Source of the DNA: a virus
Length of the DNA: 64,000 nucleotides
Reading direction: 5' to 3' (one strand)
Virus record (IMG/VR): IMGVR_UViG_3300023174_000046
Location: 124,001-188,000 of that record
Below, piece by piece: positions 4-59,640 of the stretch; within the stretch, counting starts at the first letter, position 1, and the number at the start of each line of letters is the position of its first letter. Both the position numbers and the translations under genes were made by a program. The notes beneath the pieces were generated by a model. It worked only from the letters and a program-made list of their open reading frames with translations, had not been told where the DNA came from and did not search any database.

Positions 4-2259
4 TTGTTTAAAGAAATTAACCCTGTAGGTGTTGGCCCCGATGGTAGCAATCAAGGTGATTTTATTTCTCAAGATGAATTAAACTTTTTTAATTTTACTG
101 GTGGTCGTGGTGGACTAAACGGTACTGGTCGCAAAGGACTCTCTTATAATCAATTTAACGAACTAAGATCAACACAGAAAAAACCGTGTATGATACTTGA
201 TGGGTATGTATTTTACGATATAACGGACGGTTATAATTTTAATTACTCAGTACCTAATCCTGACAAAAGAGTGTCTGGTGTCTTTACAAGAACTGTAACT
301 CAAATACCACCAGGCAGCGGTTACTACACATCTGGACCCAGTATTCTCTCTGCAGCACCCGATCCATATATTAATTATAAAATTTCGTTTCCTTATTCTG
401 CACCACCTAGCTTTAAGCCACTACCAACACCTTTGCTTCTTGTAGCGTACGGCAAAGGTCATTTTGTGCCTGATGATTTTTGCGATGTTAATACTGTAAG
501 TTATTGTTTAGTGTTAGATTGTGTTACCTTTCTCGATTCACTGAGCAATGCAAGATTAGACGTATCATCTGATTTACCTTCATGGTCAACCGCTATACCT
601 GTATATTACAGTGAATTACTCGAAGGCAGCTTAACAACTTCACTAACTAAGCCAAACAATATAGATAGAGCTACCTTCTCTTACACATACCCCGCTTCCG
701 CGCAAGTAATACAGGAGTTAAATGGTTACAGGTTTAATCTTCAAGGACAAACACCTTGCGCAGTGAATAATACTGCAATTACACCAGGATTGGATTACAA
801 TATTGATAATTCAAGCTTTGTAAACTTGCCTGTTCTGCCTGCTTTTGAAACCAAGGTTCAAGACTTATCTACTTCTCTTATTGGCAACAAAACCATTTAT
901 GCAGGCCGTAACGAAGTAGTTGGTACTATGTATTACAAAAACGCTAATACCTCACGGGTAGATCTCATTCAAGATGCACTATCTTCTGTTTTTGCAAAAT
1001 ATCCAATAGATGTTCAAAATAATATATCACAAGGTGTAATCAACTTTGATCTCATTTTCAATGTTATTTTCATTGAAACAGTTAATTATTTTATAATTGA
1101 TAAATTAGACTATGATTACGAACAAAATAATGTTGAACCGTACAATAGCGATAAAAATTTCTTACCTACATACATAGTAGATAAAAATATTGAAAAAATA
1201 AGCAATATTTTCTATAATGAAAAATTAAACGAAGTTGTCTTTACCCGCATGGTATTGCTACCAACAATGAGTGCCAGCAATTTAAAGATTATCTACCCTG
1301 AAATTTATAAAATTGATATAACAACCCCGGTAATTAAAAAACTTTATCCAAATTTTGAATTAACTTATAATAACTTATCGAGCTTTATTCATATTGACGC
1401 AGATACAAATGTTGAGCGAATTGATAAGCCTATTATTTCATATAATGAAGATTCAAAAACATATCTAATAAATTATCTTGCTAAAGATAGCAATAACGTA
1501 TTTTTTAATGTTTTTGAAGAATTTCAAATAAAGAATAGTGATATTATTTTCTTACAAAACGTATTCTATAAGCCTGAATACTTTATTAAAGATTATAATT
1601 TTACAGTTATCAATTCAATAACTGCACTCCAAGGCAATTTACTAGCCGGTACACTTTCATCTTTTCAAAATATCAATACACACACATATTGGTTCTGTAT
1701 TTCCTCTGAGCCTATAGTTATTGTTCCTGAATACATTGTTTGTTCTTATGGTATAGCGTTTGAACCAATAACTACTCCTGTGCCTACACCTTCTGTGACA
1801 CCAACAGTCACACCAACACCAACACCTACACCACCACCAACACCTACACTTCCTCCGTGGACCAATACATGTTCCACTTACAGCATCCAAGTTAGCGGGG
1901 CAGGTCTACTTGCAGCAAATGGCATGTATATTTTCTCTGCTGGTGACACTCTATTTTTCAGTGATTCATCACAATTTACTGTATTTTATCAATCAACAAG
2001 TGACTCGCGTTTCTTCGTAATCTTTGACAATGCATATCCTACAGCCAACAACGTAATTAAAGCTGTAGTACTTTCTGCAGATAATACTTACAGCAATCAA
2101 GCTTTCTTCTATGCAAGCACAGGGTTGATTCTTGATTATGCCTGTGTACCTTACGGTCAATATGGTGTTAGATCTGCCTTGGATCCAGTTTATCTTGAAA
2201 CATTGAATCTCTCCGGTATTGCACCATATCCAACAGTTTCATTCTTTAGTATGACGTAA
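4..2259 (+). CDS. Virion surface protein with Thr-Pro linker (5' end may lie outside the window)
   Basis: A protein of at least 751 residues. The frame is open to the window edge and the TTG used here has no clear ribosome site, so the true start may lie upstream. Residues 1-585 match no family I recognise and are rich in Tyr, Asn and Ser, like phage fibre proteins. Residues about 590-618 are a Thr-Pro tract of the kind seen in the next two proteins. A C-terminal domain of about 130 residues follows, opening with the pattern VSGAG..ANGMY; a similar SG...NG pattern occurs in the minus-strand protein at 54473-55216. A late promoter for the next gene overlaps its stop. A tail or fibre component is inferred from composition and neighbours. 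Confidence 0.6.
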   Translation: MFKEINPVGVGPDGSNQGDFISQDELNFFNFTGGRGGLNGTGRKGLSYNQFNELRSTQKKPCMILDGYVFYDITDGYNFNYSVPNPDKRVSGVFTRTVTQIPPGSGYYTSGPSILSAAPDPYINYKISFPYSAPPSFKPLPTPLLLVAYGKGHFVPDDFCDVNTVSYCLVLDCVTFLDSLSNARLDVSSDLPSWSTAIPVYYSELLEGSLTTSLTKPNNIDRATFSYTYPASAQVIQELNGYRFNLQGQTPCAVNNTAITPGLDYNIDNSSFVNLPVLPAFETKVQDLSTSLIGNKTIYAGRNEVVGTMYYKNANTSRVDLIQDALSSVFAKYPIDVQNNISQGVINFDLIFNVIFIETVNYFIIDKLDYDYEQNNVEPYNSDKNFLPTYIVDKNIEKISNIFYNEKLNEVVFTRMVLLPTMSASNLKIIYPEIYKIDITTPVIKKLYPNFELTYNNLSSFIHIDADTNVERIDKPIISYNEDSKTYLINYLAKDSNNVFFNVFEEFQIKNSDIIFLQNVFYKPEYFIKDYNFTVINSITALQGNLLAGTLSSFQNINTHTYWFCISSEPIVIVPEYIVCSYGIAFEPITTPVPTPSVTPTVTPTPTPTPPPTPTLPPWTNTCSTYSIQVSGAGLLAANGMYIFSAGDTLFFSDSSQFTVFYQSTSDSRFFVIFDNAYPTANNVIKAVVLSADNTYSNQAFFYASTGLILDYACVPYGQYGVRSALDPVYLETLNLSGIAPYPTVSFFSMT

Positions 2260-2265
2260 TAAATA
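2258..2265 (+). promoter_or_regulatory. Late promoter AATAAATA
   Basis: T4-type late -10 element overlapping the end of the upstream gene. Exactly 5 nt separate it from ATG 2271, so the expected +1 is the start codon. Confidence 0.7.
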
Positions 2266-2270
2266 ACTAG

Positions 2271-2741
2271 ATGGCAACGCTACCATACATATATGCCGAT
2301 TCATTATCAGGTTCTATCAAATATCTCGGAGAATGTTATGTTACAACAGGTAATAGCGGCATTATTAATGCTAAAAAAGAAGAATTTGTTGATTCACAAG
2401 ATTGTAATATCTGCTTAGGCCAATCGCCTTTCCCTTTACTTACACCAACACCTACAATTTCCCTTACACCAGATCCTACAAGAACTGTCACACCAACACC
2501 TACTGTAACTCCAACCGTGACCCCTACAGTAACACCCACTGTTACTCCTACGGTAACACCAACTGTTACACGCACACCAACACCTACAGTAACACCCACT
2601 GTTACTCCTACGGTAACACCAACTGTTACACGCACACCAACACCCACGGTAACACCGACAATTACCATCACACCTACAATTTCTCTTACACCTACTGTTA
2701 CACGAACACCAACACCTACAGTAACACCTACTAAACCATAA
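2271..2741 (+). CDS. Short Thr-Pro-repeat virion protein
   Basis: A 156-residue protein. The first 56 residues form a small domain with three Cys (C22, C44, C47). The rest, about 100 residues, is almost pure (V/P)TPT repeat, extended and without hydrophobic core. It includes a perfect 60-bp tandem duplication at DNA level. Such tracts act as stalks or as O-glycosylation sites in other proteins; which applies here is not shown. It starts 5 nt after a late motif and is followed within 3 nt by the next gene. No catalytic motif is visible. Confidence 0.7.
2523..2642 (+). repeat. Perfect 60-bp tandem repeat in Thr-Pro coding sequence
   Basis: Bases 2523-2580 are identical to 2583-2640, with a 60-base period that extends by about two bases on each side. 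It encodes 20 residues of Thr-Pro repeat twice. It stays in frame, so copy-number change would lengthen or shorten the linker without breaking the gene. Confidence 0.9.
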
Positions 2742-2744
2742 TAT

Positions 2745-4187
2745 ATGAACCTTTCAGCATCCAGATCCTTTTCTCTATTACCTACAGATCAATTATCGCC
2801 CGAAAATGACATTCTTGTTTCATTTGATTACGTAACAAATGTTTATGATAACTATCAAAATGTTTATGATAATGAAACACCGTCTGAGGGGTTTTGTTTG
2901 TTTTTTTACGAGGGCAATGCACCTCTTGGTGGTGGTGCGCCTGGTTCTGGCTTAGGGTATCTCCCCGACTCTTTTGCTGTAACAAATAATAATAATATTC
3001 TTTTTAGCGAATTTAACAATACTTTTATATCTTATAATCTCACAGCATATGGTACAGTCAATAACATGCCCGCATATAGAGGTGACTCATCTAGATTGAG
3101 CGGTGCTAAAATCGATTTTTATACTTCAGGTTACAATGGTCTCTTTCCTAGTACTTCCGGTTGGCGCATCTGGGATGGTACAAACAAATATTTTTACTAT
3201 AGTGACAGTAATGTATTGTATCCAATGTGGGCTGTTAACTGGAATAATGGGCCTGATATTCAATCGGGCTGGGGATACCCTTTAATTACCAGAAAAGATA
3301 TTGGATACAGTTATGCAGGTAAAGCTGGAAGCTTATTGGGAATTGGTTTTGATTTTACTGGTAATTTCAGAACCGCATACAACTCACCTGTGACAGGAAG
3401 CCCTGTTATTAATAATGTTACTATTAGAAACGGTGATTATACCTACCTCACAAATTCAACCAATCTTACTTCCACAAATTTTTTATACCCAACTATTCTT
3501 TGGAATAGTTTGACAAATAGCGGTCTACCCAATATTGGTAACCGCGTAAAAGTTAGATTAACGGATCTCGGCAGAACTATTAATGTAAAAATGCGCCCCT
3601 ACGGCATTGAGGAATACGTGGATGTATTAACTTATAGTTCTTTAAATTTAGGCCCAGGAAATACAACAGATAGTATTAAAGTAGGTTTAAATTTTTCTTC
3701 ACTTAATAATACAGATTTCGGTATTCGTAATTTCAATATTGCAGGGGTAGCTGCAACACCTACTGCAACACCAACACCAACATCAACAGTTACACCAACT
3801 GTTACACCTACACAAACAGTTACACCAACTGTAACACCTACACGAACTGTGACACCAACACCTACACGAACAGCTACACCAACAGTTACACCAACAATTA
3901 CTATCACGCGCACCCCAGGTATTACACCGACTGCAACTCCAACAGTTACACCTACAGCTACTGTCACACCAACAGCAGGCGCTACATCCACGCCTACACC
4001 TACTGTGACACCAACTGCAACACCGCCACCTTCACAGACACCTACTACAACACCAACACCTACAGTTACAGTAACTGCAACACCAACACCTACTGTGACA
4101 CCTACACCAACTGCGCCACCATCACCGTTCCCTGACGGCACTGTTCTGGCCAACGGTGTTATTGTTGGATTTGGAAGAACCCCATAA
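2745..4187 (+). CDS. L-type lectin-like virion protein with Thr-Pro tail
   Basis: A 480-residue protein. Residues 1-335 look like a legume or L-type lectin (concanavalin A-like) domain. Visible signs are GFCLFFYEG, then a Gly-rich G.GLGYLPDS, the strand [10 protein letters not shown], and near the end [18 protein letters not shown], in the order expected for that fold. Residues about 337-460 are Thr-Pro repeats, and a short end ([17 protein letters not shown]) follows. Probable role: a carbohydrate-binding particle protein for host attachment, with the tail as a stalk. The lectin call rests on pattern, not alignment. The gene follows the Thr-Pro protein by 3 nt. Confidence 0.55.
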
Positions 4188-4199: not shown

Positions 4200-5642
4200 A
4201 TGGCAACAAATATATACAATCCAATTAATTTAGTTTACAGTACTAATACCTGGACAGGTGTTGATAATTCTTTAAGTGGTGGTGATACTTACAGAACACT
4301 CATTCACGATATTGTATATTCAGGGAGCAATCTTTTCTTTGGTGGTGCGTTTATATATGACTACACAAATGCAAACAACCTGCCCAGCTATCAACTGCCC
4401 ACTGATAAGAAAATACAAGTTATTAACATAGGATATTTTGATACTACAAGCAACCGCATACGCTCCATAGGCGGTATAGGGACACGCGTACAGGTTTCAA
4501 GCGCACAAACAGTAAACCAAAATACAGCCATATATAGCATGGCAATGAGCGGTAGCAATCTTGTTGCAGCAGGTAACTTTAATTTAATTAATACACAAAT
4601 TACAAGTTTTGAATGCACATCTGCAATAAATAGGACTCAATTTTACACACTTTCAGATACCATACCGTTTAATGCAAATGTAACTGTGGGGCAAGTTATC
4701 CATTTGTCTGCTTATAATTTACTATTCACATCTCTTTTTACAAACTCGTTACCTGGAATATGCTTCACTCCAAGGTTTTCCGGAGATTATGCAGATAGCA
4801 TTGCATACTACAGCTCTTCGAATCAAAAATGGAACGCGTTCCCTAACAGTACAAACGTTTCTTTTGGTCAATCAGCATATGCAGTAGAATTTTACAACAA
4901 CAGAATATACACTGCAGGTGCATATCTAAGCGGCACTATTTTCTATAATGATGGTACTACTTGGCAACAAGTAACGCCCAACATGGCAGCTAATAGAAAT
5001 TCGGATGCAACATGTTTGAAGCTATACAACGATCAACGTGGCAATCTTATATACTGCGGAACATTTTCTGGATTTAATGGTGATTTGAAAAAAACTGGCA
5101 TAATGGGGTATGACGGTAGCACATTCTTTGCTCTTGGTTCAGGCTTATCCGGTACTGCACCATATGCAGGTAATGTTGTTTTGTCGGGCGATAACTACAT
5201 TGCTGCTGGTCTTTTTGATGATCGTATTGCATATTGCAACCGATCAACTAATTCCAATTTTAAAAGTTTTTATAATGGTACAAATAATTTTGCATCTGAT
5301 GCATATGTTCTTTCAATTGCTCTTTCTGGCAGTACACTCATATTTGGTGGTTATTTTTACAACCTCAATTCTGTTGCAACTACTGTTGGTGCCGTTGATA
5401 CTGCCGGTAACATCACAAATCTTGGTGGGTTGATTGATGATAACGTGTACAATTTCGGCCCCGTGCCAAGAATAATGTTAGCAAATGTGCCAGTTAACTA
5501 CACCCTTGCTTCTTCAATATCAGGCGACTTCACTACTATAGATCTTCAAACATCACGCGATATTCTGGGTACAATTTCAGGTCTCTCCGCGTATGGTAGC
5601 TCACCTTATCAAGGTGTTAGCGGTATTGATGTAACTCTATAA
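4200..5642 (+). CDS. Beta-propeller virion protein (GGxF blades)
   Basis: A 480-residue protein with at least six repeats of the form L-x-x-G-G/A-x-F, such as LFFGGAFIYD, LVAAGNFNLI, IYTAGAYLSG, LIYCGTFSGF, YIAAGLFDDR and LIFGGYFYNL. They are spaced about 50-90 residues apart and several are followed by a short turn. This resembles the Delta-60/DUF5122 type of beta-propeller found in bacterial surface proteins. The last 50 residues lack the repeat. No signal peptide or catalytic motif is present. It has its own late motif and closes the first structural block, so a tail-fibre or decoration role is likely. Confidence 0.6.
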   Translation: MATNIYNPINLVYSTNTWTGVDNSLSGGDTYRTLIHDIVYSGSNLFFGGAFIYDYTNANNLPSYQLPTDKKIQVINIGYFDTTSNRIRSIGGIGTRVQVSSAQTVNQNTAIYSMAMSGSNLVAAGNFNLINTQITSFECTSAINRTQFYTLSDTIPFNANVTVGQVIHLSAYNLLFTSLFTNSLPGICFTPRFSGDYADSIAYYSSSNQKWNAFPNSTNVSFGQSAYAVEFYNNRIYTAGAYLSGTIFYNDGTTWQQVTPNMAANRNSDATCLKLYNDQRGNLIYCGTFSGFNGDLKKTGIMGYDGSTFFALGSGLSGTAPYAGNVVLSGDNYIAAGLFDDRIAYCNRSTNSNFKSFYNGTNNFASDAYVLSIALSGSTLIFGGYFYNLNSVATTVGAVDTAGNITNLGGLIDDNVYNFGPVPRIMLANVPVNYTLASSISGDFTTIDLQTSRDILGTISGLSAYGSSPYQGVSGIDVTL

Positions 5643-5675: not shown

Positions 5676-6932
5676 GTGGAAAATATTTTTATACAGATTG
5701 CTGCCTATCGCGACCCACAACTAGTACCAACTTTACGTGACTGCATTAAGAATGCAAAGTTTCCTGACAGGCTAAGATTTTGCATATGCTGGCAACATGA
5801 TGAGAAAGATAGCTTGGAAGAATTTGCTACTGATAAACGGTTTACTATTCTAGATGTACCATATCAAAAAAGCCAAGGTGTTTGTTGGGCAAGAAGTACC
5901 ATTCAGAATTATTATCGTGATGAAAAATATACACTCCAATTGGATAGCCATCATCGGTTTACCGAAAACTGGGATGATACGTTAATAAAAATGGTCAAAC
6001 AATTGCAAAAGAAAGGACACAGAAAGCCTCTCCTTACCGGGTATATTCCTAGTTTTGATCCAGATAACGATCCCGGTGCACGTATTCATGTGCCTTGGAA
6101 AATGAATTTTGATAGATTTATTCCTGAAGGAGCCGTTTTTTTCTTACCTGCATCAATTGACAATTTTAAAGAATTAAAAGAACCTATTCCTGCTAGATTT
6201 TATTCAGCACATTTCTGCTTTACATTAGGTCAATTCTGTAAAGAAGTACCACATGATCCTAATTATTACTTTCACGGTGAGGAGATTAGCATTGCAGTGA
6301 GAGCGTTCACACATGGATACGATTTATTTCATCCACACAAAGTAATTATTTGGCATGAATATACTAGAAAAGGCAGAACCAAACAATGGGACGATGATAA
6401 AGATTGGGGCAAACGAAATGAACAATGTCATCTACGCAATCGTAAACTATTTGAAATGGATGGTGAGAAAAAAGATATTGATTTCGGACCATACGGCTTT
6501 GGTGATAAAAGAACTCTTAAAGACTACGAAAAATATGCTGGTCTTAATTTTAAGAAAAGAGCTGTGCAGCAGTATACAGTAGACCATCACTTAGCACCAA
6601 ACCCATATACATTCAAAAATGAAAAAGAATGGGAAGCGTCTTTCCTTCAAATCTTTAAACATTGTATTGATATACGATACGATCAAGTGCCTGAAAAAGA
6701 TTATGATTTCTGGTGTGTAGCTTTTAAGGATAAGGAAGGCAAAGATGTATTCCGAAAAGATGCGGACAAAGACGAGATTCAGCGCATGTTTAATGATCCA
6801 GACAAGTACTGTAAAGTTTGGCGAGAATTTAATTGTGAAACAATGCCTGTGAGTTGGTTGGTGTGGCCACATAGCATAGGCAAAGGTTGGGCTGATCCTA
6901 TTACAGGTAGGATAGGTGACAGGGCTAGCTAA
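5676..6932 (+). CDS. GlcNAc-transferase, Skp1 GnT1-like family (PF11397 type)
   Basis: A 418-residue enzyme starting at GTG. The opening IFIQIAAYRDPQLVPTLRDC, then CICWQH, then GVCWARS, then YTLQLDSHHRF (near residue 90) followed by W.D.L are the hallmark order of the family named for Dictyostelium Skp1 GlcNAc-transferase. The DSH triplet serves as the metal-binding DxD-like site. Characterised members add GlcNAc from UDP-GlcNAc to hydroxyproline in a protein. Later GEEI and HEYTR motifs also fit. It lies directly after Thr-Pro virion proteins, which makes them candidate acceptors (inference). A late-like GTAAAATA lies 4 nt before the start. Confidence 0.8.
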   Translation: MENIFIQIAAYRDPQLVPTLRDCIKNAKFPDRLRFCICWQHDEKDSLEEFATDKRFTILDVPYQKSQGVCWARSTIQNYYRDEKYTLQLDSHHRFTENWDDTLIKMVKQLQKKGHRKPLLTGYIPSFDPDNDPGARIHVPWKMNFDRFIPEGAVFFLPASIDNFKELKEPIPARFYSAHFCFTLGQFCKEVPHDPNYYFHGEEISIAVRAFTHGYDLFHPHKVIIWHEYTRKGRTKQWDDDKDWGKRNEQCHLRNRKLFEMDGEKKDIDFGPYGFGDKRTLKDYEKYAGLNFKKRAVQQYTVDHHLAPNPYTFKNEKEWEASFLQIFKHCIDIRYDQVPEKDYDFWCVAFKDKEGKDVFRKDADKDEIQRMFNDPDKYCKVWREFNCETMPVSWLVWPHSIGKGWADPITGRIGDRAS

Positions 6933-6935
6933 CAT

Positions 6936-7514
6936 ATGATAGCGGTACAAATCGGTGCCAATAGAGGCAATGATGAATTTACATCATTAATAAAAAACGT
7001 ACATGTTGATACTCTTGTTTTAGTTGAACCATTAAGTGTTCACAATTCAAGCCTGAACGATTGTTACTCGAATATTCAAAATAAATTTATAGAAAATATT
7101 ATCATTACAGATAAAGAAAATAGCGAGGAGGTTATTTATTTTCATAAGCTTGACGGGCTAGAATACGGTAATAATTATGAATTAGCAAGCCTCAACAAAC
7201 AACATTCTTTAAATATAAGAAATTCTTACGAGGAAAAAGAGGTAATCGCATTAAAGCTGCCCAATTTGACAATCAATAATCTATTGGACAAATATAAATT
7301 ACAAAATATTGATTTGCTATTTATAGACACTGAAGGATATGATAGCAAAATAATTATGAGTATAGATTTCACTAAATTTAATATTAAAGAAATTTACTAT
7401 GAAAATCTTCATATTAACGCTTATGAATTAAGAACATTCTTAAAAGAGAAAAATTATTCTGTAAATGAAGGTGTTTTAACATATGGATGGAATGACAGGG
7501 CAATCAAATGCTAA
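6936..7514 (+). CDS. FkbM-family methyltransferase
   Basis: A 192-residue, SAM-dependent methyltransferase. The SAM-binding motif VQIGANRGN lies at residues 4-12, VEP at the end of strand 2, and LLFIDTEGYD near residue 130, the FkbM signature. FkbM enzymes usually O-methylate sugars or polyketides. The start is 4 nt after the GlcNAc-transferase stop and the end overlaps the next gene by 7 nt, so it belongs to a translationally coupled sugar operon. A terminal O-methyl cap on the glycan is the likely product. Confidence 0.8.
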   Translation: MIAVQIGANRGNDEFTSLIKNVHVDTLVLVEPLSVHNSSLNDCYSNIQNKFIENIIITDKENSEEVIYFHKLDGLEYGNNYELASLNKQHSLNIRNSYEEKEVIALKLPNLTINNLLDKYKLQNIDLLFIDTEGYDSKIIMSIDFTKFNIKEIYYENLHINAYELRTFLKEKNYSVNEGVLTYGWNDRAIKC

Positions 7515-10213: not shown

Positions 10214-10909
10214 ATGTCGTACGATCATATAAAGAAATGGGACGACATTTTTTGTGCACAACATGTTATAAATCTAGTTAACCACATTTCGAGTTTGCTC
10301 TTAAAAAATAATATCAACCAAATAAACTATCTGGATATTGGTGCAAACGTGGGTAAAGTCTACGATTTATTATCAGAAAGAATACCAATTAACAAAGCAT
10401 ATCTTGTTGAAGCCAGTCCCCTACTTTTTAACTATATCAAACAAAAATATACAAATAATTCAAAAGTACAATTGTTTAATTTTGCCGCTTATAACGAAGA
10501 AACAAAAATTCAATTTGATCAATCTTCAATGCTTCATCAATTTGAAACAGATGGATCAAATTTAAATTTAGGTCTTTCTAAAATTCAACACACACCCCAA
10601 TCTGTTAGTATTGATGCAAAGCGTGTCTCAACATTTTTAAATGAGCGTCAGCTTTTTAGTGAATTATCTTTTATAAAAATAGACACTGAAACAGTAGATT
10701 TCATGATACTTGAAGATTTGCTAAAAGTCATATCGTTATTTGACGTTAAACCACTTATTGAATTTGAAAAAAATCATTTCATACAAGGCTTGAGCGATGA
10801 ACAAGCTCAGCATATACTTGATAAATTTGTAAACTATGGTTATAAACCATTGAATTTAGGTCAATGTTACGGCGACGGGCTGTTAATACCGGAAGGGTTT
10901 GTAGAGTAA
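10214..10909 (+). CDS. FkbM-family methyltransferase
   Basis: A 231-residue protein with YLDIGANVGK at about residue 38 (SAM loop), YLVEAS, FNFAAYN and FIKIDTETVD near residue 154, the FkbM pattern. The second FkbM enzyme in this block is only distantly similar to the first, so they probably methylate different positions or sugars. Unlike its upstream neighbours it is preceded by a 29-nt gap with a sigma70-like promoter, so it could be expressed separately. One nucleotide separates it from the HtrL-GT2 fusion. Confidence 0.8.
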   Translation: MSYDHIKKWDDIFCAQHVINLVNHISSLLLKNNINQINYLDIGANVGKVYDLLSERIPINKAYLVEASPLLFNYIKQKYTNNSKVQLFNFAAYNEETKIQFDQSSMLHQFETDGSNLNLGLSKIQHTPQSVSIDAKRVSTFLNERQLFSELSFIKIDTETVDFMILEDLLKVISLFDVKPLIEFEKNHFIQGLSDEQAQHILDKFVNYGYKPLNLGQCYGDGLLIPEGFVE

Positions 10910-10910
10910 T

Positions 10911-12575
10911 ATGAATAATTTAACGTTAGTTACAGGTATTTGGGATTTAAGGCGCGACCAAGCGGGTGAAGGTTTTAAGCGACCTTTTACCCATTATATT
11001 GTAAAGTTTACCGAACTCCTAAGAGCCGCTAAAGAATACAATATGGTTGTTTATATTGAAGAAAAGTATAAAGATTTGGTATTGAGTATAAGAGATCCAC
11101 AAAATACACAAATTCGTATAAAAGAAGTTGATGAGTTCAAAACAAGCTTTCCTTTTTACGATAAAATTACAGAAATAAGAAATAAAGACAGTTGGCTGAA
11201 TCAAGCTGGTTGGTTACGCGAAAGCACGCAAGCAACTATGGAACTTTATAACCCCATGGTTATGTCAAAGTTGTTCATGCTTCACGACGAAAAAATTAGA
11301 AATTCTTTTAATACAGATTATTTTTATTGGATTGATGGTGGGTTAACTAGCACTGTGCATCACGGTTATTTTTCAAAAGAAAAAATATTAGACAAAATAC
11401 CAAAAATTACAGATAAATTTCTTTTTATAGCATTCCCTTATGCAGAAGGAGATGAGATACATGGGTTTACTAGAACAAAAATGAATGAGTTGGCACAAAC
11501 AAAGAATGTAGAGTATGTTTGCCGTGGAGGTTTTTTTGGTGGTCATAAGAATAATATATCGGACATTAACGGTATATATTACTCTCTTTTAAGCAGTACC
11601 CTTAATGACGGATACATGGGCACAGAAGAAAGCATCTTTACCCTCATGACATATACTCACCCGCACTTGTTTGCAAAACATATGATAGATGGCAATGGCC
11701 TTGTTGGTAAATTTTTTGAAGATATTAAAAACACACCATTTACTGAAAATAAAATTACACTAAATAATTATTCTGGTGTCAACTTATATGTTCTATCATT
11801 TAACTCACCAGAGCAGTTTGAGAGATTAATTGAAAGCTATTTAAAGCAACCTGGGTTTGTGCGTGAAACAAAAAATATTTTAATAGATAATAGTACAGAC
11901 CCTGCAGTTAATGACAAATATGTGGAGCTTTGCGCAAAATTTAATTTTGAACACATTAAAAAAGATAATATAGGTATTTGTGGTGGAAGACAATTTGTTG
12001 CAGAGCATTTCAATACTACTGACGCAAAATATTATATGTTTCTTGAAGATGATATGAATTTATGTGATGAAAATTTTAAATTTTGTAAAAACGGATTTTC
12101 AAGAAATATCGAAAATCTTTACTATAAGATTCAAAAAATTATGGATAAAGAAGATTATGATTTTCTTAAGCTCTCATTTACAGAGTTTTTTGGTGATAAT
12201 ATGACCCAGTGGTCGTGGTATAATGTACCGCAGTCTATAAGAGAGCTGTACTGGCCAGGTAAAGTTAAACTACCTGTAATAGGATTAGACCCTAACGCAC
12301 CGAAGACAGTTTTTAAGAATATAGGCAGTGTAGATGGTTTAAGTTATATTGATGGTGAGATATACTATTGTAACTGGCCTCAAATTGTATCGCGAGCTGG
12401 CAATAAAAGAATGTTTCTTAGCACTAAATGGGATCATCCCTTTGAGCAGACATGGATGTCTTATATGTATCAGCTAACTAAGAGAGACATGTTAAAAAGC
12501 GCAGTTTTGTTAGCGTCACCTATAAATCATGAGAGATTTGCCTTTTATAAAAGCGAAGAGAGAAGAGAGAACTAA
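10911..12575 (+). CDS. Two-domain glycosyltransferase: HtrL/YibB-like plus GT2-like
   Basis: A 554-residue protein with two halves. Residues 1-275 resemble HtrL/YibB (TLVTGIWDLRR, a K..ELL..A segment, YFYWIDGG near residue 140 as a D-containing site). Residues about 285-520 form a GT-A domain: LYVLSFNSPEQFERLIESYL, LIDNSTD, NIGICGGRQF, and YYMFLEDDMNL near residue 378 as the metal-binding DxD. The fusion suggests two successive sugar additions by one chain. It ends the first sugar block. The next gene is structural and has its own late motif starting at the stop codon. Confidence 0.65.
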   Translation: MNNLTLVTGIWDLRRDQAGEGFKRPFTHYIVKFTELLRAAKEYNMVVYIEEKYKDLVLSIRDPQNTQIRIKEVDEFKTSFPFYDKITEIRNKDSWLNQAGWLRESTQATMELYNPMVMSKLFMLHDEKIRNSFNTDYFYWIDGGLTSTVHHGYFSKEKILDKIPKITDKFLFIAFPYAEGDEIHGFTRTKMNELAQTKNVEYVCRGGFFGGHKNNISDINGIYYSLLSSTLNDGYMGTEESIFTLMTYTHPHLFAKHMIDGNGLVGKFFEDIKNTPFTENKITLNNYSGVNLYVLSFNSPEQFERLIESYLKQPGFVRETKNILIDNSTDPAVNDKYVELCAKFNFEHIKKDNIGICGGRQFVAEHFNTTDAKYYMFLEDDMNLCDENFKFCKNGFSRNIENLYYKIQKIMDKEDYDFLKLSFTEFFGDNMTQWSWYNVPQSIRELYWPGKVKLPVIGLDPNAPKTVFKNIGSVDGLSYIDGEIYYCNWPQIVSRAGNKRMFLSTKWDHPFEQTWMSYMYQLTKRDMLKSAVLLASPINHERFAFYKSEERREN

Positions 12576-23401: not shown

Positions 23402-24160
23402 ATGTATACAGACATTCAATTAGTATCTACGCTTAATAAAAAATATCTACCTGGCGCGCGAGCCTTTTTACGAAGTCTAGTCAAGCATAATAAAATTAAT
23501 TATCTTTATAATTTTTTTATTTTTGAAGAAATTAGCAGTTCAGACAAAGAGTCTCTCCAATGCATTTATCCTTCCGTAAATTTTATTGAAATAGATACAG
23601 AAGACTACTCTTACTATAATACTAATGATGTTTTTCGAAATTGGGGGTTCAATTGTTTTAATAGATTTGAGATTTTTACTTTAAAGTGTAAAAAATTGAT
23701 TTTTTTTGATTTAGATATGATTGTATTAGATTCATTAGAAGATATATTTACTAGTGATGTACGCTTTGGTTCTGTCGAAATAGAACCTTTCGGTAGACTA
23801 GATCACCCAACAAAAAGAATGTTTGATGGTGGTTTAATGGTAATCTCAGAAGAGTTTTTAACTCATAAGACAAAAAATAAGTTAATTGAAATATCTAAAC
23901 TGAAAAAATGGTCTAGTGATGAGCCAGTTTTAAATTTATTTTTTGAAAATGATGTTACTTTTTTACCTAAAAAATACAATATATTAAGCTACGAATATAA
24001 CAAACACAAGAATAATTGTAGCGTTTTGCAATATGTCGGTACTAAAAAACCATGGGCAGGTAAAACTATCGAAAGCAATTTTGATAATTATGTAATTAAA
24101 AGAAATAAAATTACAGATCTTATGAAGATACAACACATTTTTAATCAATATGCAAATTAA
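23402..24160 (+). CDS. GT8-like glycosyltransferase
   Basis: A 252-residue GT-A enzyme. LVSTLNKKYLPGARAFLRSL at the start, FDLDMIVLDSL near residue 103 (the DxD metal site) and MFDGGLMVIS, equivalent to the family N-x-G-x-x motif, point to GT8 (glycogenin/galactosyltransferase type). The DxD binds Mn and the UDP-sugar in this family. The next gene starts 11 nt before its end, so it is part of a tightly packed operon of transferases. Confidence 0.75.
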   Translation: MYTDIQLVSTLNKKYLPGARAFLRSLVKHNKINYLYNFFIFEEISSSDKESLQCIYPSVNFIEIDTEDYSYYNTNDVFRNWGFNCFNRFEIFTLKCKKLIFFDLDMIVLDSLEDIFTSDVRFGSVEIEPFGRLDHPTKRMFDGGLMVISEEFLTHKTKNKLIEISKLKKWSSDEPVLNLFFENDVTFLPKKYNILSYEYNKHKNNCSVLQYVGTKKPWAGKTIESNFDNYVIKRNKITDLMKIQHIFNQYAN

Positions 24161-24893
24161 TTCATTCTATTTTGGTAAAAAATTAAATCTTATGGAACAA
24201 CTCACTATAGTGAGCTTTCTTAATCAGGGGCATAGCTTTAAGCTATATACATATGATAATAATATTTGTGATATCAAACATAATAGTTTTAATATCATTG
24301 ATGCAAATGAAATTTTAGATAAAAAGTACTTCTTTACATATGACGGCAAGGGTGATTGTCCCGCTAATAGCGTTGGTGGTTTTTCAGATATTTTTAGATT
24401 TTCTATTTTAGAAAAAAATCAAGGCTGGTATGTAGATATGGATGTGACTTGTTTGAAAGACTTCAATCATTTAGATCAATTACCATGTGTATTTCGGCCA
24501 AATAAAAATTATGGAGCTGTCGCAAACATTATTAAATGCGAGAACAAGCAGTTAATTAGTGAAATACTAGCCCAGTATAAAGAATGTATAACTCCAATGA
24601 ATAACGAATGGGTTAAACCTCTTAATATTTTTTATGAACTAATTAAAAACCATAATCTAGAAAATTATATAATTGATAAAAAAATATTTGGTGATGATAA
24701 TGCATCGGACCTACTCAACTTTATTAATAAAAATATTTACGAACTTAATAATGTACCTGAATACGCTATACACTGGTGCAATACTGCATGCACAACTGCA
24801 TCTTGGAATAAGCGGCTAAAAATAGACTGGAATAATCCAAGACCTGCGTCCCTGTACTATTGTTTACTTAAAAAGAACGGCTTAATTAATTAG
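24150..24893 (+). CDS. GT32-like glycosyltransferase
   Basis: A 247-residue protein. The segment GGFSDIFRFSILEKNQGWYVDMDVTCL (cited in part: SDIFRFSIL and GWYVDMDV, DxD near residue 96) is the core of GT32 and OCH1/TcdB-like transferases. The C-terminus keeps IHWCNTACTTASW, the place where members of the family have a His-W segment. Characterised members transfer mannose, GalNAc or glucose. It overlaps the preceding GT8 gene. Confidence 0.75.
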   Translation: MQINSFYFGKKLNLMEQLTIVSFLNQGHSFKLYTYDNNICDIKHNSFNIIDANEILDKKYFFTYDGKGDCPANSVGGFSDIFRFSILEKNQGWYVDMDVTCLKDFNHLDQLPCVFRPNKNYGAVANIIKCENKQLISEILAQYKECITPMNNEWVKPLNIFYELIKNHNLENYIIDKKIFGDDNASDLLNFINKNIYELNNVPEYAIHWCNTACTTASWNKRLKIDWNNPRPASLYYCLLKKNGLIN

Positions 24894-24895
24894 TT

Positions 24896-25639
24896 ATGAT
24901 ATCGATAGCTTGTGTTTCTGATTCTGGTTATTTACGCTACGCAAAAGCTATGTTTAAATCTTTTAATTACAAACATCAAAAATTACAGAAACATATGCTA
25001 TATGTAGGTAATAAACAAGAGTATGTAAACGAAGCAATTAATATGCATTACGATGGTACACAGCTTTCTGATGTGAAAGATATAATTAAAGATACGAATA
25101 CCGAAGATAATGAGTACAAGCAGTACTTTACAAATAGTACTTTTTTATCAGAAAAAAACTGCTACTGTAATAATCAGAGATTCAAATTCATAAGCAATTT
25201 ATTAGAAGCAAATACAAGAAATTTAATTTTTACAGATGCAGATATGCTATGCAACCGCAATGTAGATTTTTTAAAAGCCATTTCATACAAAAGAGATATT
25301 TGCTTACAACCATATTTTGAAGATAAAAAATATTACAGGACAAATTTTTGCTATATTAATAATACACCTGCGACGAGAGACTTTTTTAAGATGGTTTCTG
25401 TAGGTATAGAGAAAGATTTTGGTCTATTAAAATGGGGTCATACAAAATATTTTACTGAATTAATAAAGCAATCAAATTTAAAGGTATTAGACCTGCCAGA
25501 AAATTTTATTGATACTAATTATAGTGCTGATAGTTATATCTGGTCAGGAGAAAGTTTTAGAAAAGATAAAAATATGGTAAACCTATCAACTAAAAATTTT
25601 AATTATATTAACAAATATGAAAGTTATTATGAATCATGA
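24896..25639 (+). CDS. GT-A glycosyltransferase with DADM motif
   Basis: A 247-residue protein. ISIACVSDSGYLRYAKAMFKSF at the start and LIFTDADMLCNRNVDFL near residue 112 mark a nucleotide-sugar GT-A fold with DxD; CYINNTPATRDFF follows. It resembles GT8/GT77-type enzymes in layout. The end overlaps the radical SAM gene by 23 nt. Donor and acceptor are unknown. Confidence 0.65.
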   Translation: MISIACVSDSGYLRYAKAMFKSFNYKHQKLQKHMLYVGNKQEYVNEAINMHYDGTQLSDVKDIIKDTNTEDNEYKQYFTNSTFLSEKNCYCNNQRFKFISNLLEANTRNLIFTDADMLCNRNVDFLKAISYKRDICLQPYFEDKKYYRTNFCYINNTPATRDFFKMVSVGIEKDFGLLKWGHTKYFTELIKQSNLKVLDLPENFIDTNYSADSYIWSGESFRKDKNMVNLSTKNFNYINKYESYYES

Positions 25640-26453
25640 ATTAATAATGGAGGTGAGCTTATATGTAGGGTGTAGTGTTAATTGCAGTTATTGTCCACAG
25701 TTTAGCTTGTTTAAACTATCAAAAAAGCGTAAAATGGGTATTGATGATTATAAAATTCTTTTAGATAAAATTCCTTGCACAACACATATAGGGTTTATTG
25801 GTATGAGTGAACCACTACTCTACAAAGAGTTTGATAAAATTATACAGTATACGCTCCACAAAAAACATAAAATGATATGCTTTACAACCTTACCCGAGAA
25901 GATACAAGCCAATGCTGATATATTTCTCAATAAAAATCTTTGGTATAGAAGATCGGTGCATATTAAAGATGAGAACATGTTGGATAAGACTATTACACAT
26001 CAGTATCTTAATAATTTAGAAAAATACTTTGATCAAATTGATATTAACGATATGAGCAAACAAAACTCCATCACAATATTATCAGATAATATAGATTCAC
26101 AAATTGAAAATTTAATATCAAAATACAACTTACAAGAATACGTCTTTAGAACACAACCTTTTAAACGCATAAGAGCTCCTATCACCTATAAAACACCTGT
26201 AATACCGTCAAAATTATCAGGCAAAATTTATTGTTCTCAGGGTCACGATAAAATACAACACTTATTGCCCGACGGTGATGTTGTGCTGTGTTGTATGGAT
26301 GTTGAAAAGATGCATGTTCTTGGCAACCTCTTTAAAAACTCCTACCAAGACCTATATAATTCAAAGGAATATAAGGAAATACAGCAAGGCTATGAAGATG
26401 ATAGAGTTAAAACTATATGCAGATCATGTATTTTTGCAAAAAACGTAATATGA
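25617..26453 (+). CDS. Radical SAM/SPASM enzyme
   Basis: A 278-residue protein. C19-x3-C23-x2-C26 (CSVNCSYC) is the classic site for the 4Fe-4S cluster that cleaves SAM. The C-terminal part has IYCSQGHDK, LLPDGDVVLCCMD, VLGNL and ICRSCIF, a SPASM-type second cluster region. SPASM enzymes modify peptides or act as sugar/aminoglycoside dehydrogenases or epimerases. Among glycosyltransferases the sugar role is more likely (inference). Internal ATGs at 25629 and 25647 are alternative starts. The next gene overlaps it in the form ATGA. Confidence 0.8.
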   Translation: MKVIMNHELIMEVSLYVGCSVNCSYCPQFSLFKLSKKRKMGIDDYKILLDKIPCTTHIGFIGMSEPLLYKEFDKIIQYTLHKKHKMICFTTLPEKIQANADIFLNKNLWYRRSVHIKDENMLDKTITHQYLNNLEKYFDQIDINDMSKQNSITILSDNIDSQIENLISKYNLQEYVFRTQPFKRIRAPITYKTPVIPSKLSGKIYCSQGHDKIQHLLPDGDVVLCCMDVEKMHVLGNLFKNSYQDLYNSKEYKEIQQGYEDDRVKTICRSCIFAKNVI

Positions 26454-27241
26454 AGATTTGTTTTTCATACAGTGTTGATGAGAACTACTATTCATACGTT
26501 AAAAATAGTATTAATTCGCTTACCAAAAATGCTCCAAACGTATATGCAAATATTGATCTTGTTGATTTCTACCAAACATATATTAATTTTGTCGACAGCA
26601 ATAAGATAAAATTCAATTACATTTTTCCTAAAGTACCGGCTAACAAAATTACTATTAAAAATAAAGGTTGTGAAGCATTAACAGAGAGAATAGTCAGTCT
26701 CACAGGTGCATATGCAAATCTACGCAAAGTTTACAACATTTATAGCCTACTATTAACTAATGAGTATGATTACGTGGTTAATATGGATGCAGATAATTTA
26801 ATTCTCAAGAATGTAGAGGACTATATCTCCAGATTACCACAAGGTTTCGATATTCACATCAAATATAATGAAGGTAAACTAGAAGGTGATGAGCTAGTAA
26901 GAAGAAAGGATAATTTTAAACATTTTAACGCAGTAGGGGTTGAATTAATCGACAAGCATTTCCGGGAAGGATGCATGGTAGTTAGCAATACTGAGAACTC
27001 ACGTAAATTTTTTAAGCTAGTGGCAGAGAATATCTTATCAAAAATTGTATGGTACGGTGATTCATACTGGATAACATATGCTTATTCTTTAATGAAAGAC
27101 GAAATTAAAATAAATCGTCTCCCTGAGGATTTTGTAATTTATGATCTCAATGAAACCAACATTGATACTGCATATGTTTGTAGTGGTTATGGCATGAATA
27201 AACATAGTAATTTATATAAACAGTTAATAGTTGATGAATAA
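26450..27241 (+). CDS. GT-A glycosyltransferase with DADN motif
   Basis: A 263-residue protein when started at ATG 26450, which overlaps the radical SAM stop as ATGA; an in-frame ATG at 26417 lies deep in that gene and is less likely. KICFSYSVDENYYSYVKNSI at the start, YVVNMDADNLIL near residue 112 (DxD), then FREGCMVVSN and WYGDSYWITYAYS fit the GT8-like GT-A layout. The third such enzyme in this operon. Confidence 0.65.
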   Translation: MKICFSYSVDENYYSYVKNSINSLTKNAPNVYANIDLVDFYQTYINFVDSNKIKFNYIFPKVPANKITIKNKGCEALTERIVSLTGAYANLRKVYNIYSLLLTNEYDYVVNMDADNLILKNVEDYISRLPQGFDIHIKYNEGKLEGDELVRRKDNFKHFNAVGVELIDKHFREGCMVVSNTENSRKFFKLVAENILSKIVWYGDSYWITYAYSLMKDEIKINRLPEDFVIYDLNETNIDTAYVCSGYGMNKHSNLYKQLIVDE

Positions 27242-27992
27242 ATTTTTAAATTTATACAATAGCTATATTAAGCTATCTAACACACATCAGTTTGAAAAAA
27301 ATAATACTAAGTTTATAGGTATGTTCGGTAAAACATATGAAAACGGCAAAATAATCACAACAAAATTATACTTTAATATAGAAAAGTCTATTAACTGTGA
27401 CTCCTTTCCGTATCAAAATAAAATTAACCTATATAAAAAATACGAACCCTTTGTAGATTATACACGCACTTTCAGCAACTGTATTGCAGTTAAAAAAGAT
27501 TTAACAAAAAATAATTTTACCGAATACTTTCATCTTAAATTTAACAACCAGTTCAAGTTTGAAGAGCTTGATACTTTTCATGGTATTAATTTAAATGATT
27601 ACAAAAAAGGTATATCTGTAGAATTCAATAAAACAAAAGAAGACATAAAACGATATTATTATATAAGTGACATTTTCGATATACAGACAATTTTCAATCA
27701 ATTTAATATTAAAGAGAATGCATCTGCATTAAAATATATCGAGTTTACATACAATCCAACTAAGAGCATTTTTATATATAACGATACAGAAAAGCTTTTA
27801 ACGGGCATAACACATAACTGCCCTGGTGATATTGTACTTGATGTGCATGCCATGACTGACAGCTACGGGCTTAAGCCATGTTTATTCGGAAAATACTATG
27901 GTACACCAAAATATACAGTATATTGGGATCTAAATTTTAACAATTTTAATTTGGGTAGCGACTTATTTAAATATATTACTGAGCAAAGTTGA
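27234..27992 (+). CDS. Unknown protein in the sugar operon
   Basis: A 252-residue protein that I do not recognise; ATG 27234 overlaps the previous stop. It is rich in Asn, Lys, Tyr and Phe, with alternating strands such as LKYIEFTYNPTKSIFIYND, and a C-terminal GDIVLDVHAMTDSYG and TPKYTVYWDLNF. The repeated strand pattern might suit a beta-barrel enzyme, but no catalytic motif is clear. A promoter for the next gene overlaps its last codons. Confidence 0.45.
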   Translation: MNKFLNLYNSYIKLSNTHQFEKNNTKFIGMFGKTYENGKIITTKLYFNIEKSINCDSFPYQNKINLYKKYEPFVDYTRTFSNCIAVKKDLTKNNFTEYFHLKFNNQFKFEELDTFHGINLNDYKKGISVEFNKTKEDIKRYYYISDIFDIQTIFNQFNIKENASALKYIEFTYNPTKSIFIYNDTEKLLTGITHNCPGDIVLDVHAMTDSYGLKPCLFGKYYGTPKYTVYWDLNFNNFNLGSDLFKYITEQS

Positions 27993-28016
27993 TATTATAA
28001 GTAGTTATTGTAGTAT
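27989..28016 (+). promoter_or_regulatory. Sigma70-like promoter of the amidinotransferase operon
   Basis: TTGATA, 16 nt spacer, TAGTAT, then 6 nt to ATG 28023. It could drive the whole modifying-enzyme cassette. Confidence 0.5.
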
Positions 28017-28022
28017 AAACTT

Positions 28023-29120
28023 ATGGAGTGTCCTGTCAATAGTCATAATGAATGGGATGTTTTGGAGGAAGTTATTGTGGGTAATGGATTTCCAGAAAAA
28101 ATACCTATTGATGATATGTCTTTCCGTTTATTTTTTCACGATAATATATACGGCAAACCTACAACTTACTTTTCCGAACGCTGGGGCATGTGTTCTAAGA
28201 TAATAGATGAGCATAATGAAGATTTAGAAAATTTTGTTAGTCTACTGCAACAGAATAACGTAACAGTAAGGAGACCGAAGAAACCTACCAGTATAAAGAA
28301 GATAAAAACCTTGGGCTGGAATAGTATAAATTACCCCGCACTCAATGTAAGAGACCTAACCATGATAGTTGGTAGTACGATTATTGAAACACCTGTTTCT
28401 GCGCGCTGGAGACAGTTTGAAAATGATTATATGAAACATTTATTTTTAGAATACTTTAATAAAGGTGCAAGATGGTTGAATGCACCGCGTCCTATCGCTA
28501 CAGACAACTCATACGATTTGAATGAAGTGTATAAAACAGAAGGTGCAGAAGCATTTTATTTTGATATTAAAGATAAGTTTAGTCACGAATTAGATTGTGG
28601 ATATGAAATAATGTTTGACGCAGCAAACTGTCAACGTCTAGGTGATAAAATTCTTTTTAATGCACCTACTAAAAATGAGATGCTTGGAGTAAAGTGGTTA
28701 CAAGACATGTTAGGGGAAGCATATACAATCTGGCCATGCAATGTAACAGATCATCATATAGACTCAGTATTTTTACCTTTACGCCCTGGATTGGCATTAA
28801 TTACACTTGATATTGTTGATAAGTTGCCGTGTGAATTACAAAAATGGGATTTTATACGCATACCTGCAGAGCTTGATTCCGATAAAAACATAAACTACAC
28901 ACCGCTAGCATCTGAAAAAATTTATTGTAACGTACTTTCTTTAAATCCAAATAAAATTATTTGTTTGCCTGAGTATTACTCTTTACTATCATCAAAGCTC
29001 AAGCCTTACAACATTGAAGTTATACCTTCACAAATACGTTATAGTCGGTTATTTGGTGGTGGTCATCACTGTCTCTCGTTAGATATACGAAGACAAAGTA
29101 AGTTAGAAAGCTATTTTTAA
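28023..29120 (+). CDS. Arginine:X amidinotransferase (AGAT/StrB-like)
   Basis: A 365-residue enzyme of the glycine/inosamine-phosphate amidinotransferase family. ECPVNSHNEWDVLEEVIVG opens it. NVRDLTMIVG and ETPVSARWRQFE match the family, as does FDAANCQRLGDKI with the catalytic Asp. DHHIDSVFLPL holds the catalytic His, and GGGHHCLSLDIRR near residue 349 holds the nucleophilic Cys. The full triad is present, so an active enzyme is expected. Family members move the amidino group of arginine to an amine, giving guanidinoacetate or the guanidino groups of streptomycin-type sugars. Next to a deacetylase that can expose sugar amines, a guanidino-sugar is a plausible product (inference). Confidence 0.88.
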   Translation: MECPVNSHNEWDVLEEVIVGNGFPEKIPIDDMSFRLFFHDNIYGKPTTYFSERWGMCSKIIDEHNEDLENFVSLLQQNNVTVRRPKKPTSIKKIKTLGWNSINYPALNVRDLTMIVGSTIIETPVSARWRQFENDYMKHLFLEYFNKGARWLNAPRPIATDNSYDLNEVYKTEGAEAFYFDIKDKFSHELDCGYEIMFDAANCQRLGDKILFNAPTKNEMLGVKWLQDMLGEAYTIWPCNVTDHHIDSVFLPLRPGLALITLDIVDKLPCELQKWDFIRIPAELDSDKNINYTPLASEKIYCNVLSLNPNKIICLPEYYSLLSSKLKPYNIEVIPSQIRYSRLFGGGHHCLSLDIRRQSKLESYF

Positions 29121-29884
29121 TGAAATTATTAGTTTTAATATTTTCTTGCAAGAAAAATATAGACCGTTGCCTGGCAATACAACAGTCATGGCTGCAAGAT
29201 CTCAAGCAAAACCATATTGAGTATTTTTTTGTTTCTGCAGATGATCTAGAATTACAAGAACCGTCAATTAAACTAGAAAATTTTACTGAATGTTACGAAC
29301 AATTACCGCTTAAAACATTTCTTACTCTCAAACAAATTTACAATTATAAGTTTACACATCTTGTTAAAACAGATGATGATGTTTTCTTGAATATTAAAAA
29401 GTTAATTGCAACACTTCCGAAAAATGTTGATTATTCAGGCAAATTTAACCTCAAAGGTGTTGATGCGTCCATGATACACTATTATAAATGTAGTGGAGAA
29501 TTTAGAACACCAAAAAAGAAAGCAAGCCACGACTACGCAGAAGGGGGCATGTACATACTCAGTAAGAAAGCTGTTAAATATATTGTAAGTTGTGATCAGG
29601 AAACTTTCATTAATTCACCTAAAACTTATAAAGGTGAAGATGTTGCAGTTGGTGAACTACTTAATAATGAAAAATTTACTAAATTAGATCTTACAGATAG
29701 CTTATCTGACAAACTTAATATGGATATCACAAGAAATGGTGTCTCGTATCACCCGGTGCATAAATCGTTGATGCACAAATTATATAAAGCTAAGACAACG
29801 AACGACAGAATAGATATATTAGTTGCAAATACAGCAAAGAATGACTATAATAAACGGGATATATTTATTAGAAAATATGAGTAA
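29120..29884 (+). CDS. GT31-like glycosyltransferase (beta-3-galactosyltransferase type)
   Basis: A 254-residue protein. QQSWLQD, HLVKTDDDVFLN near residue 83 (the GT31 DDD motif), then YAEGGMYILSKKAV and GEDVAVGELL follow the GT31 order. These enzymes add Gal or GlcNAc in beta-1,3 linkage, in eukaryotes often on O-glycan cores. GT31 is uncommon in phages. It has no transmembrane anchor, unlike Golgi members. It abuts the amidinotransferase (stop and start share the region TAATG) and overlaps the next gene by 8 nt. Confidence 0.8.
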   Translation: MKLLVLIFSCKKNIDRCLAIQQSWLQDLKQNHIEYFFVSADDLELQEPSIKLENFTECYEQLPLKTFLTLKQIYNYKFTHLVKTDDDVFLNIKKLIATLPKNVDYSGKFNLKGVDASMIHYYKCSGEFRTPKKKASHDYAEGGMYILSKKAVKYIVSCDQETFINSPKTYKGEDVAVGELLNNEKFTKLDLTDSLSDKLNMDITRNGVSYHPVHKSLMHKLYKAKTTNDRIDILVANTAKNDYNKRDIFIRKYE

Positions 29885-30527: not shown

Positions 30528-30528
30528 C

Positions 30529-36742: not shown

Positions 36743-37129
36743 GTGCCTTCACCAACACCGACTGTCACTCCGACGCCCACAGTAACGCCAACTTTAACTG
36801 TAACTGCTACGCCTGCTCCCACTATGACTTCAACCCCTACGGCCACATATACTCCACCACCCACACAAACGCCAACCGCTACCAGTTTTTCTACACCCCT
36901 TCAAGTAGATGAAATGAAAACTACATCAAATAGCAGACTAGAAGGCACCATATATTGGAGTAAAATGAAATGGGATCTGCCTACATTGACGCCTACACCA
37001 CAGGCACAAGAAAGTGAAAAAATAGAACAAAAAGAAATAAATAGTGAAAATTTTATTCGTATAACCGACAACACCCCATCAGTATTTGATAGTAAAAACA
37101 AGCTGTCATATTTTAAAAAGATTGATTAA
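36743..37129 (+). CDS. Short Thr-Pro-repeat protein with charged tail
   Basis: A 128-residue protein. Residues 1-53 are Thr-Pro repeats like those in the virion proteins at 4-4187. The rest is soluble and Lys/Glu/Ser-rich (ESEKIEQKEINSENF), with the segment GTIYWSKMKWDLP. GTG 36743 is used; the frame is open further upstream and the true start may be earlier. It lies far from the other Thr-Pro genes, next to a membrane protein. Confidence 0.5.
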   Translation: MPSPTPTVTPTPTVTPTLTVTATPAPTMTSTPTATYTPPPTQTPTATSFSTPLQVDEMKTTSNSRLEGTIYWSKMKWDLPTLTPTPQAQESEKIEQKEINSENFIRITDNTPSVFDSKNKLSYFKKID

Positions 37130-59436: not shown

Positions 59437-59437
59437 T

Positions 59438-59620: not shown

Positions 59621-59640
59621 TTTCAACTGTCTAATACTAT

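Follow-up and report, generated by a model that had tools for sequence, protein, structure and literature searches.

A GT60-family glycosyltransferase gene linked to Thr-Pro tracts of tail-region proteins in large phages

INTRODUCTION

Initiation of O-glycans on Thr/Pro-rich tracts by GT60- or GT27-type enzymes is described, in the openly available part of the literature, as a eukaryotic process. The characterised GT60 members comprise the T. cruzi enzymes, which place GlcNAc directly on mucin threonines as GlcNAc-alpha-Thr (PMC9472816; PMC3769586), a Golgi counterpart in Dictyostelium (PMC8724618) and the enzyme that modifies hydroxyproline in Skp1 (PMC8724618; PMC6939170). TcOGNT1 and the Dictyostelium Golgi enzyme are UDP-GlcNAc:polypeptide alpha-GlcNAc-transferases that act on Thr-rich mucin domains, and T. 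cruzi membranes show a Mn2+-dependent activity on KPPTTTTTTTTKPP (PMC3769586). The Skp1 enzyme, Gnt1 of Dictyostelium and Toxoplasma, is cytosolic and strictly hydroxylase-dependent (PMC6939170), modifying a single hydroxyproline in a single protein once a dedicated prolyl 4-hydroxylase has acted; PgtA, which is bifunctional and contains a GT2 domain (GT2 plus GT74), then attaches the following two sugars (PMC8724618). The GT27 enzymes, among them GalNAc-T2, -T4 and -T12, PGANT9 and TgGalNAc-T3, initiate mucin-type O-glycans on Ser/Thr. A C-terminal metal-binding His is known for GT27, and DxH replacing DxD is given as the hallmark of both GT27 and GT60 (PMC7185993).

Among phages, the mycobacteriophages Che8, Corndog and Myrna encode glycosyltransferases that modify their own virion proteins, the targets being capsid and tail tube, and the accessible portion of that account mentions no Thr-Pro tract partner (PMC12363180, citing Freeman 2023). 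For the Xanthomonas jumbo phage XacN1 at least two glycoproteins were reported by proteomic analysis; as far as the accessible text of that report goes, these are not assigned to individual proteins, and the GT60 family, the acceptor proteins and a Thr-Pro link are not named (PMC5852040). A search of the open literature (subscription papers lay outside it) found no paper that ties GT60 or PF11397 to phages under that name. Here we describe a GT60 gene in a 64-kb stretch of viral DNA (the window; positions 124001–188000 of a 217,413-base virus record) and compare its surroundings with those of its relatives in phages and bacteria.

RESULTS

Family, fold and active-site motifs

The following features define the gene and its active site (window coordinates).

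5676–6932, + strand: predicted GT60 (PF11397) polypeptide HexNAc-transferase, 418 aa, GTG start, intact ORF
5943–5960, + strand: DSHHRF, containing D90-S91-H92 (DxH, metal/UDP site), invariant in 48 phage and bacterial sequences
6273–6287, + strand: HGEEI, candidate catalytic/acid motif, H200–I204 invariant in the 48 sequences; role suggested by likeness to the GT-A xED motif
6351–6362, + strand: WHEY, whose H227 is a candidate C-terminal metal His and, like Y229, does not vary among the 48 sequences; role suggested by the GT-A C-His (PMC7185993)

The Pfam profile PF11397, 'Glycosyltransferase (GlcNAc)' (CAZy GT60), matches the ORF with an E-value of 8.6e-72 and 243 bits (Pfam cut-off 21) in two stretches, the best of which spans profile positions 97–351 of 352. 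This bears out an earlier note on this DNA, which had placed the protein in the family of the Skp1 GlcNAc-transferase. PHROG 24687, 'glycosyltransferase', matches at E 7e-178, and the NCBIfam library holds no model that matches the phage protein. A scan for promoters and terminators gave no signal above shuffled sequences.

An AlphaFold2 model built on the alignment of these 48 phage and bacterial members reached a pLDDT of 93.0 and a pTM of 0.84, and replaced an earlier model from 29 close homologues only (pLDDT 69). When this model was compared with the PDB by Foldseek, the 36 top-ranking matches were without exception GT27 polypeptide GalNAc-transferases (best E 2.5e-10), including several structures with bound peptide, and these ranked above GlfT2. 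Searches of the PDB sequences by phmmer and HMM returned no meaningful match for the GT60 protein, so that the fold comparison is the informative one. Identity to the GT27 enzymes is about 11–16%, and Pfam finds in the phage protein no counterpart of the C-terminal ricin-type lectin domain that most metazoan GT27 enzymes carry (PMC8724618). Together, fold, family and active-site motifs indicate a polypeptide transferase; as part of the overall explanation favoured below, the enzyme is likely to be a soluble GT-A glycosyltransferase with a predicted dependence on metal.

Relatives were collected from IMG/VR with exact peptide seeds, giving 236 close ones, of which 80 (66–95% identical) were kept. 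Homologues are also encoded by three cultured phages (XacN1, RAS14 and CM1), and 29 were found in bacterial genomes.

Thr-Pro tracts of the phage

Candidate and possible acceptors in the window are as follows.

1771–1857, + strand: Thr-Pro tract, candidate acceptor, within an ORF that ends at 2259 and encodes 1273 aa when read in the full record
2442–2738, + strand: Thr-Pro tract, candidate acceptor, most of ORF 2271–2741 (156 aa)
3747–4127, + strand: Thr-Pro tract, candidate acceptor, C-terminal quarter of ORF 2745–4187 (480 aa)
36743–37129, + strand: short ORF with an N-terminal Thr-Pro tract, possible acceptor
42801–42881, + strand: Thr-Pro linker, possible acceptor, in the RCC1-repeat-like protein of ORF 42333–43946

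In the record, genes for tail sheath, tail tube, gp25 and a gp6-type baseplate wedge (101.8–118.9 kb) are followed by the Thr-Pro genes (122.4–128.2 kb; 4–4187 of the window) and then by the GT60 gene. Other Thr-Pro ORFs of the phage lie at record positions 4.3–8.4 and 66.2–69.2 kb and at window positions 36743 and 42333, and that at 4.3–8.4 kb has a PHROG match annotated 'virion structural protein'. This match and the sheath, tube and wedge context suggest that the upstream Thr-Pro genes are virion genes. The GT60 gene had been described as following a run of Thr/Pro-rich virion genes at a distance of 33 nt. The 33-nt gap is there, as are three upstream ORFs with tracts, whose virion nature is probable from context, but the gene that ends 33 nt before GT60 (4200–5642) contains no Thr-Pro tract and 1.55 kb separate the end of the last tract from GT60, so the description is slightly off.

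The RCC1-repeat-like protein (PHROG 7220, E 1e-59) is encoded near the phage portal and head-closure genes. Elsewhere in the window, 55565–60579 holds host-like genes for an autotransporter-repeat protein with a PEP-CTERM-like tail, an N-methylated pseudopilin and a FecR-domain protein, whose Verrucomicrobia-like look may hint at the host. A tRNA-Leu gene (taa; 51844–51935) and an HNH-endonuclease-like ORF on the opposite strand (51914–52372) share 22 nt at the 3' end of the ORF.

Residue phase was analysed over 93 tracts (12,374 residues), in which Thr makes up 33% and Pro 19%. The position +2 from a Thr is occupied by Thr or Ser in 88% of cases, whereas the position +2 from a Pro is again Pro in only 25%, the remainder being Ile, Val, Asn, Leu and further residues. 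The Thr phase of the phage tracts is constant, with all four Thr codons in use, while the Pro phase varies. Since the tract windows were chosen by their TP count, which selects both residues equally, this asymmetry is informative, and threonine appears the likelier acceptor residue rather than proline. An origin of the tracts as a DNA microsatellite was judged unlikely because their Thr and Pro codons are synonymously diverse.

Co-occurrence of GT60 and Thr-Pro tracts

Viral records were searched for Thr-Pro tracts with a DNA pattern for TPxxTPxxTP, which was present in 36 of 50 GT60-bearing records; among 26 contigs drawn by random patterns, neither the Thr-Pro pattern nor GT60 occurred (0/26 each). 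For viral contigs of 38–160 kb the pattern was found in 27/40 with GT60 and in 0/17 random ones, the latter being a coarse control for phage lineage (Fisher p 9e-7), and a logistic model that includes length gave p 2e-6 for the GT60 effect; because the sampled records are fragments and partly related, these p-values serve as guides. The lineage-matched sample chosen by portal gene, though small, agrees (5/5 GT60-positive versus 6/22 GT60-negative records, p 0.006). In the reverse direction, GT60 was found in 18 of 50 records picked by Thr-Pro, rising to 13/21 of those of at least 90 kb. Chance as the source of the association is ruled out by the random-pattern contigs, the portal sample and the whole bacterial genomes described below.

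Two counts go against a strict pairing. Fourteen of the 50 GT60-bearing records, including 4 of the 20 above 100 kb, are without the Thr-Pro pattern; some of these loci have Thr-rich, Pro-poor stretches and others have none. Conversely, 8/21 large Thr-Pro records are without GT60, so the tracts do not require the enzyme. The Thr-rich, Pro-poor stretches (loci L072, 1–780; L063, 19467–21233; L079, 13509–14621) could be alternative acceptors.

Adjacency in phages and bacteria

At 13 phage loci GT60 is preceded, at a distance of 34–60 nt, by the end of a Thr-Pro ORF of the same strand. The strongest evidence of adjacency comes from loci in bacterial genomes, prophage or not. All 13 pattern matches of the 4.5-Mb Jiulongibacter sediminis genome fall within one gene adjoining GT60, as do all 4 matches of the 5.3-Mb chromosome of Desulfobacterales bin60. 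An S/T-P-tailed gene stands directly beside GT60 at loci of Saprospiraceae, Bacteroidia and two Gemmatimonadota, and an S/T-P gene lies just downstream at two Rhodocyclales loci. Burkholderiaceae homologues have no adjoining tract gene, and the AP-rich tracts near the Magnetococcales homologues (L446, L447) look ordinary and were not counted as support. When the GT60 tree was labelled for a Thr-Pro gene within 2.5 kb, 13 changes were needed, at least 9 of them forced by well-supported branches; the adjacency is therefore not one inherited accident. Through co-occurrence and adjacency, linkage thus gives good support to the core idea of the earlier note, that the enzyme acts on Thr-Pro tracts of the virion.

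Several bacterial loci have further features. In Jiulongibacter two GT60 genes (L429, 7948–8865 and 9968–11227) flank one Thr-Pro gene, and this set is followed by a carbamoyltransferase and then an FkbM-HtrL-GT2 fusion; a carbamoyltransferase (ORF333) also comes after GT60 in phage XacN1. A 708-aa Desulfobacterales ORF fuses GT60 to a solute-binding domain and may be an assembly artefact, since its neighbourhood contains an N run. Bacterial Thr-Pro partners (L426, 8513–9655; L429, 8947–9732; L430, 9161–9877; L442, 6720–7475) carry twin-arginine-like motifs (NRRKALK, NRRLALRELF, GRRDVLV, GRRDLVR); in two of these proteins the motif follows a PqqD-like domain. The motifs would fit glycosylation in the cytosol followed by Tat export.

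A recurrent two-domain partner

GT60 is one of seven genes in an island that also contains further sugar and methyl genes, including the following.

6936–7514, + strand: FkbM-type methyltransferase, possible glycan O-methylation (PF05050, E 2e-13)
10214–10909, + strand: second FkbM-type methyltransferase (PF05050, E 1.7e-10)
10911–12575, + strand: HtrL_YibB plus GT2-like two-domain glycosyltransferase, 554 aa, candidate extension enzyme (PF09612, E 2.4e-15)

In 4 of 18 homologues the second domain of the HtrL_YibB protein is recognised as Glycos_transf_2, and searches of PDB sequences with the protein (phmmer, HMM) gave no meaningful match. Genome-wide, the two-domain protein is present in 20/22 large records with GT60 and in 0/18 without. 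It lies within 10 kb of GT60 at 76 of the 80 phage loci, on the same strand in all 76 and directly abutting it 31 times, and a homologue is also near GT60 in XacN1, RAS14 and 9/29 bacterial loci. Given this near-constant pairing, it is the natural candidate for a second step. Homologues of the FkbM gene at 6936–7514 recur at 11/80 phage and 3/29 bacterial GT60 loci, and those of the FkbM gene at 10214–10909 at 6/80 phage loci.

DISCUSSION

Our results make it probable that the phage GT60 enzyme adds an alpha-linked HexNAc, most likely GlcNAc, to threonines of Thr-Pro tracts in tail-region proteins and that the HtrL_YibB plus GT2-like protein extends it, the pairing of GT60 with Thr-Pro genes in related phages and some bacteria being the reason to assign the tracts as substrate. 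The enzyme would take UDP-GlcNAc as its most likely donor and transfer the sugar to Thr-x-Thr-Pro tracts of the phage's own proteins; this would take place in the host cytosol during virion assembly, with no need for proline hydroxylation. The two-domain protein would then add further sugars, and the remaining island genes, such as the FkbM methyltransferases, would decorate the glycan in a strain-variable manner. The glycosylated tracts may form mucin-like stalks or linkers of the virion.

A variant of this explanation is that GT60 modifies the Thr-Pro tracts but uses UDP-GalNAc or another sugar, or accepts Ser too, as GT27 enzymes do. It draws on the nearest solved structures being GalNAc-transferases, on donor choice being something the sequence does not reveal and on the Ser-rich tracts of several bacterial partners. 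Since the characterised GT60 members use UDP-GlcNAc (PMC9472816, PMC8724618), a donor other than that of the known GT27 members, and Thr exceeds Ser about 3.6:1 in the phage tracts, we consider this variant unlikely.

It is also rather unlikely that GT60 acts on another host or phage glycoconjugate (LPS, capsule or another protein) and merely shares a variable tail or host-range island with the Thr-Pro genes. The further sugar and methyl genes of the seven-gene island would suit such a role, and E. coli yibB/htrL belongs to the LPS-core region. A passage in one review also describes phage glycosyltransferases whose targets are DNA or sugars of the host surface (PMC12619734). Against this, the GT60 fold matches polypeptide transferases first, the bacteria pair GT60 with their sole pattern-matching Thr-Pro gene or with an adjoining S/T-P gene, and the adjacency recurs across the GT60 tree.

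The earlier note had also proposed the logic of the Skp1 glycan, in which a phage 2OG oxygenase would hydroxylate tract prolines, GT60 would add GlcNAc to hydroxyproline and GT31- and GT8-like enzymes would extend it. The enzymes it named, a PhyH-type 2OG oxygenase, a GT31-like (Galactosyl_T/Fringe) enzyme and a GT8 enzyme, are all present in a second island, GT60 does include the Skp1 enzyme, and PhyH scores above cut-off in 5/22 records with GT60 (the phage of the window included) versus 0/18 without. However, the prolyl-4-hydroxylase-type family PF13640 has no match in this phage and is similarly frequent in large records with and without GT60 (3/22 and 3/18), and no homologue of the second-island 2OG, GT31 or GT8 enzymes is found less than 10 kb from GT60 in any of the 80 relatives, which rules out these enzymes as a conserved pathway with GT60 and leaves the HtrL_YibB plus GT2-like protein as the consistent candidate for extension. 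Pro is also the variable phase of the tracts and Thr/Ser the constant one, GT60 equally includes the T. cruzi enzymes that act directly on mucin threonines, and the 2OG gene adjoins a tryptophan halogenase and a PIG-L enzyme, suggesting that it belongs to another pathway; a hydroxyproline-based route is therefore very improbable. The second island itself (23402–33397) encodes GT8, GT32-like and GT31-like transferases, a radical SAM/SPASM protein, a PIG-L deacetylase, the PhyH oxygenase and the tryptophan halogenase (PHROG 2928, E 5e-92), an unusual combination for a single run of phage genes.

For the proposed threonine-directed initiation by the phage enzyme, the mucin-type O-GlcNAc initiation of protists (T. 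cruzi and Dictyostelium) appears a better analogue than Skp1. TcOGNT1 and its Dictyostelium counterpart share the Pfam and CAZy family and the DxH motif, but they are Golgi enzymes, whereas here a phage gene is paired with an HtrL_YibB plus GT2-like protein and the candidate acceptor tracts alternate Thr with Pro, Val or Ile in probable tail proteins. The Skp1 enzyme also belongs to the family, and its GT2-domain partner offers a parallel to the putative extender, but GT60 shows no association here with a dedicated prolyl 4-hydroxylase like that of the Skp1 pathway.

Among the cultured phages, XacN1 resembles the present locus: ORF334 is a GT60 homologue (50% identical), the HtrL homologue ORF330 lies 4 kb from it, and Thr-Pro proteins are encoded by ORF325 (3,313 aa, beside baseplate wedge genes) and ORF350. 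It differs in that the carbamoyltransferase adjoins GT60 in place of the island genes of the window. The glycoproteins reported for XacN1 are an experimental hint in favour of the proposal, tempered by a second transferase, ORF328, that this phage also encodes. Cultured XacN1 makes the proposed Thr-Pro glycosylation directly testable by mass spectrometry.

More broadly, the evidence leaves evenly balanced the proposition that mucin-type O-glycosylation is widespread in prokaryotes, with a GT60 initiator, an HtrL_YibB-GT2 extender and a dedicated Thr-Pro 'mucin', in large tailed phages (on tail-region proteins) and in several bacterial phyla (on exported, often twin-arginine-like proteins), and is perhaps the source of the protist GT60 pathways. 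If true, a phage and bacterial cassette with its own extender and substrate would explain the puzzling Thr-Pro tracts and sugar-gene islands of many large phages. It would also supply a glycosylation sequon and a tool enzyme that works in the bacterial cytosol, and would bear on the origin of the GT60 pathways of protists.
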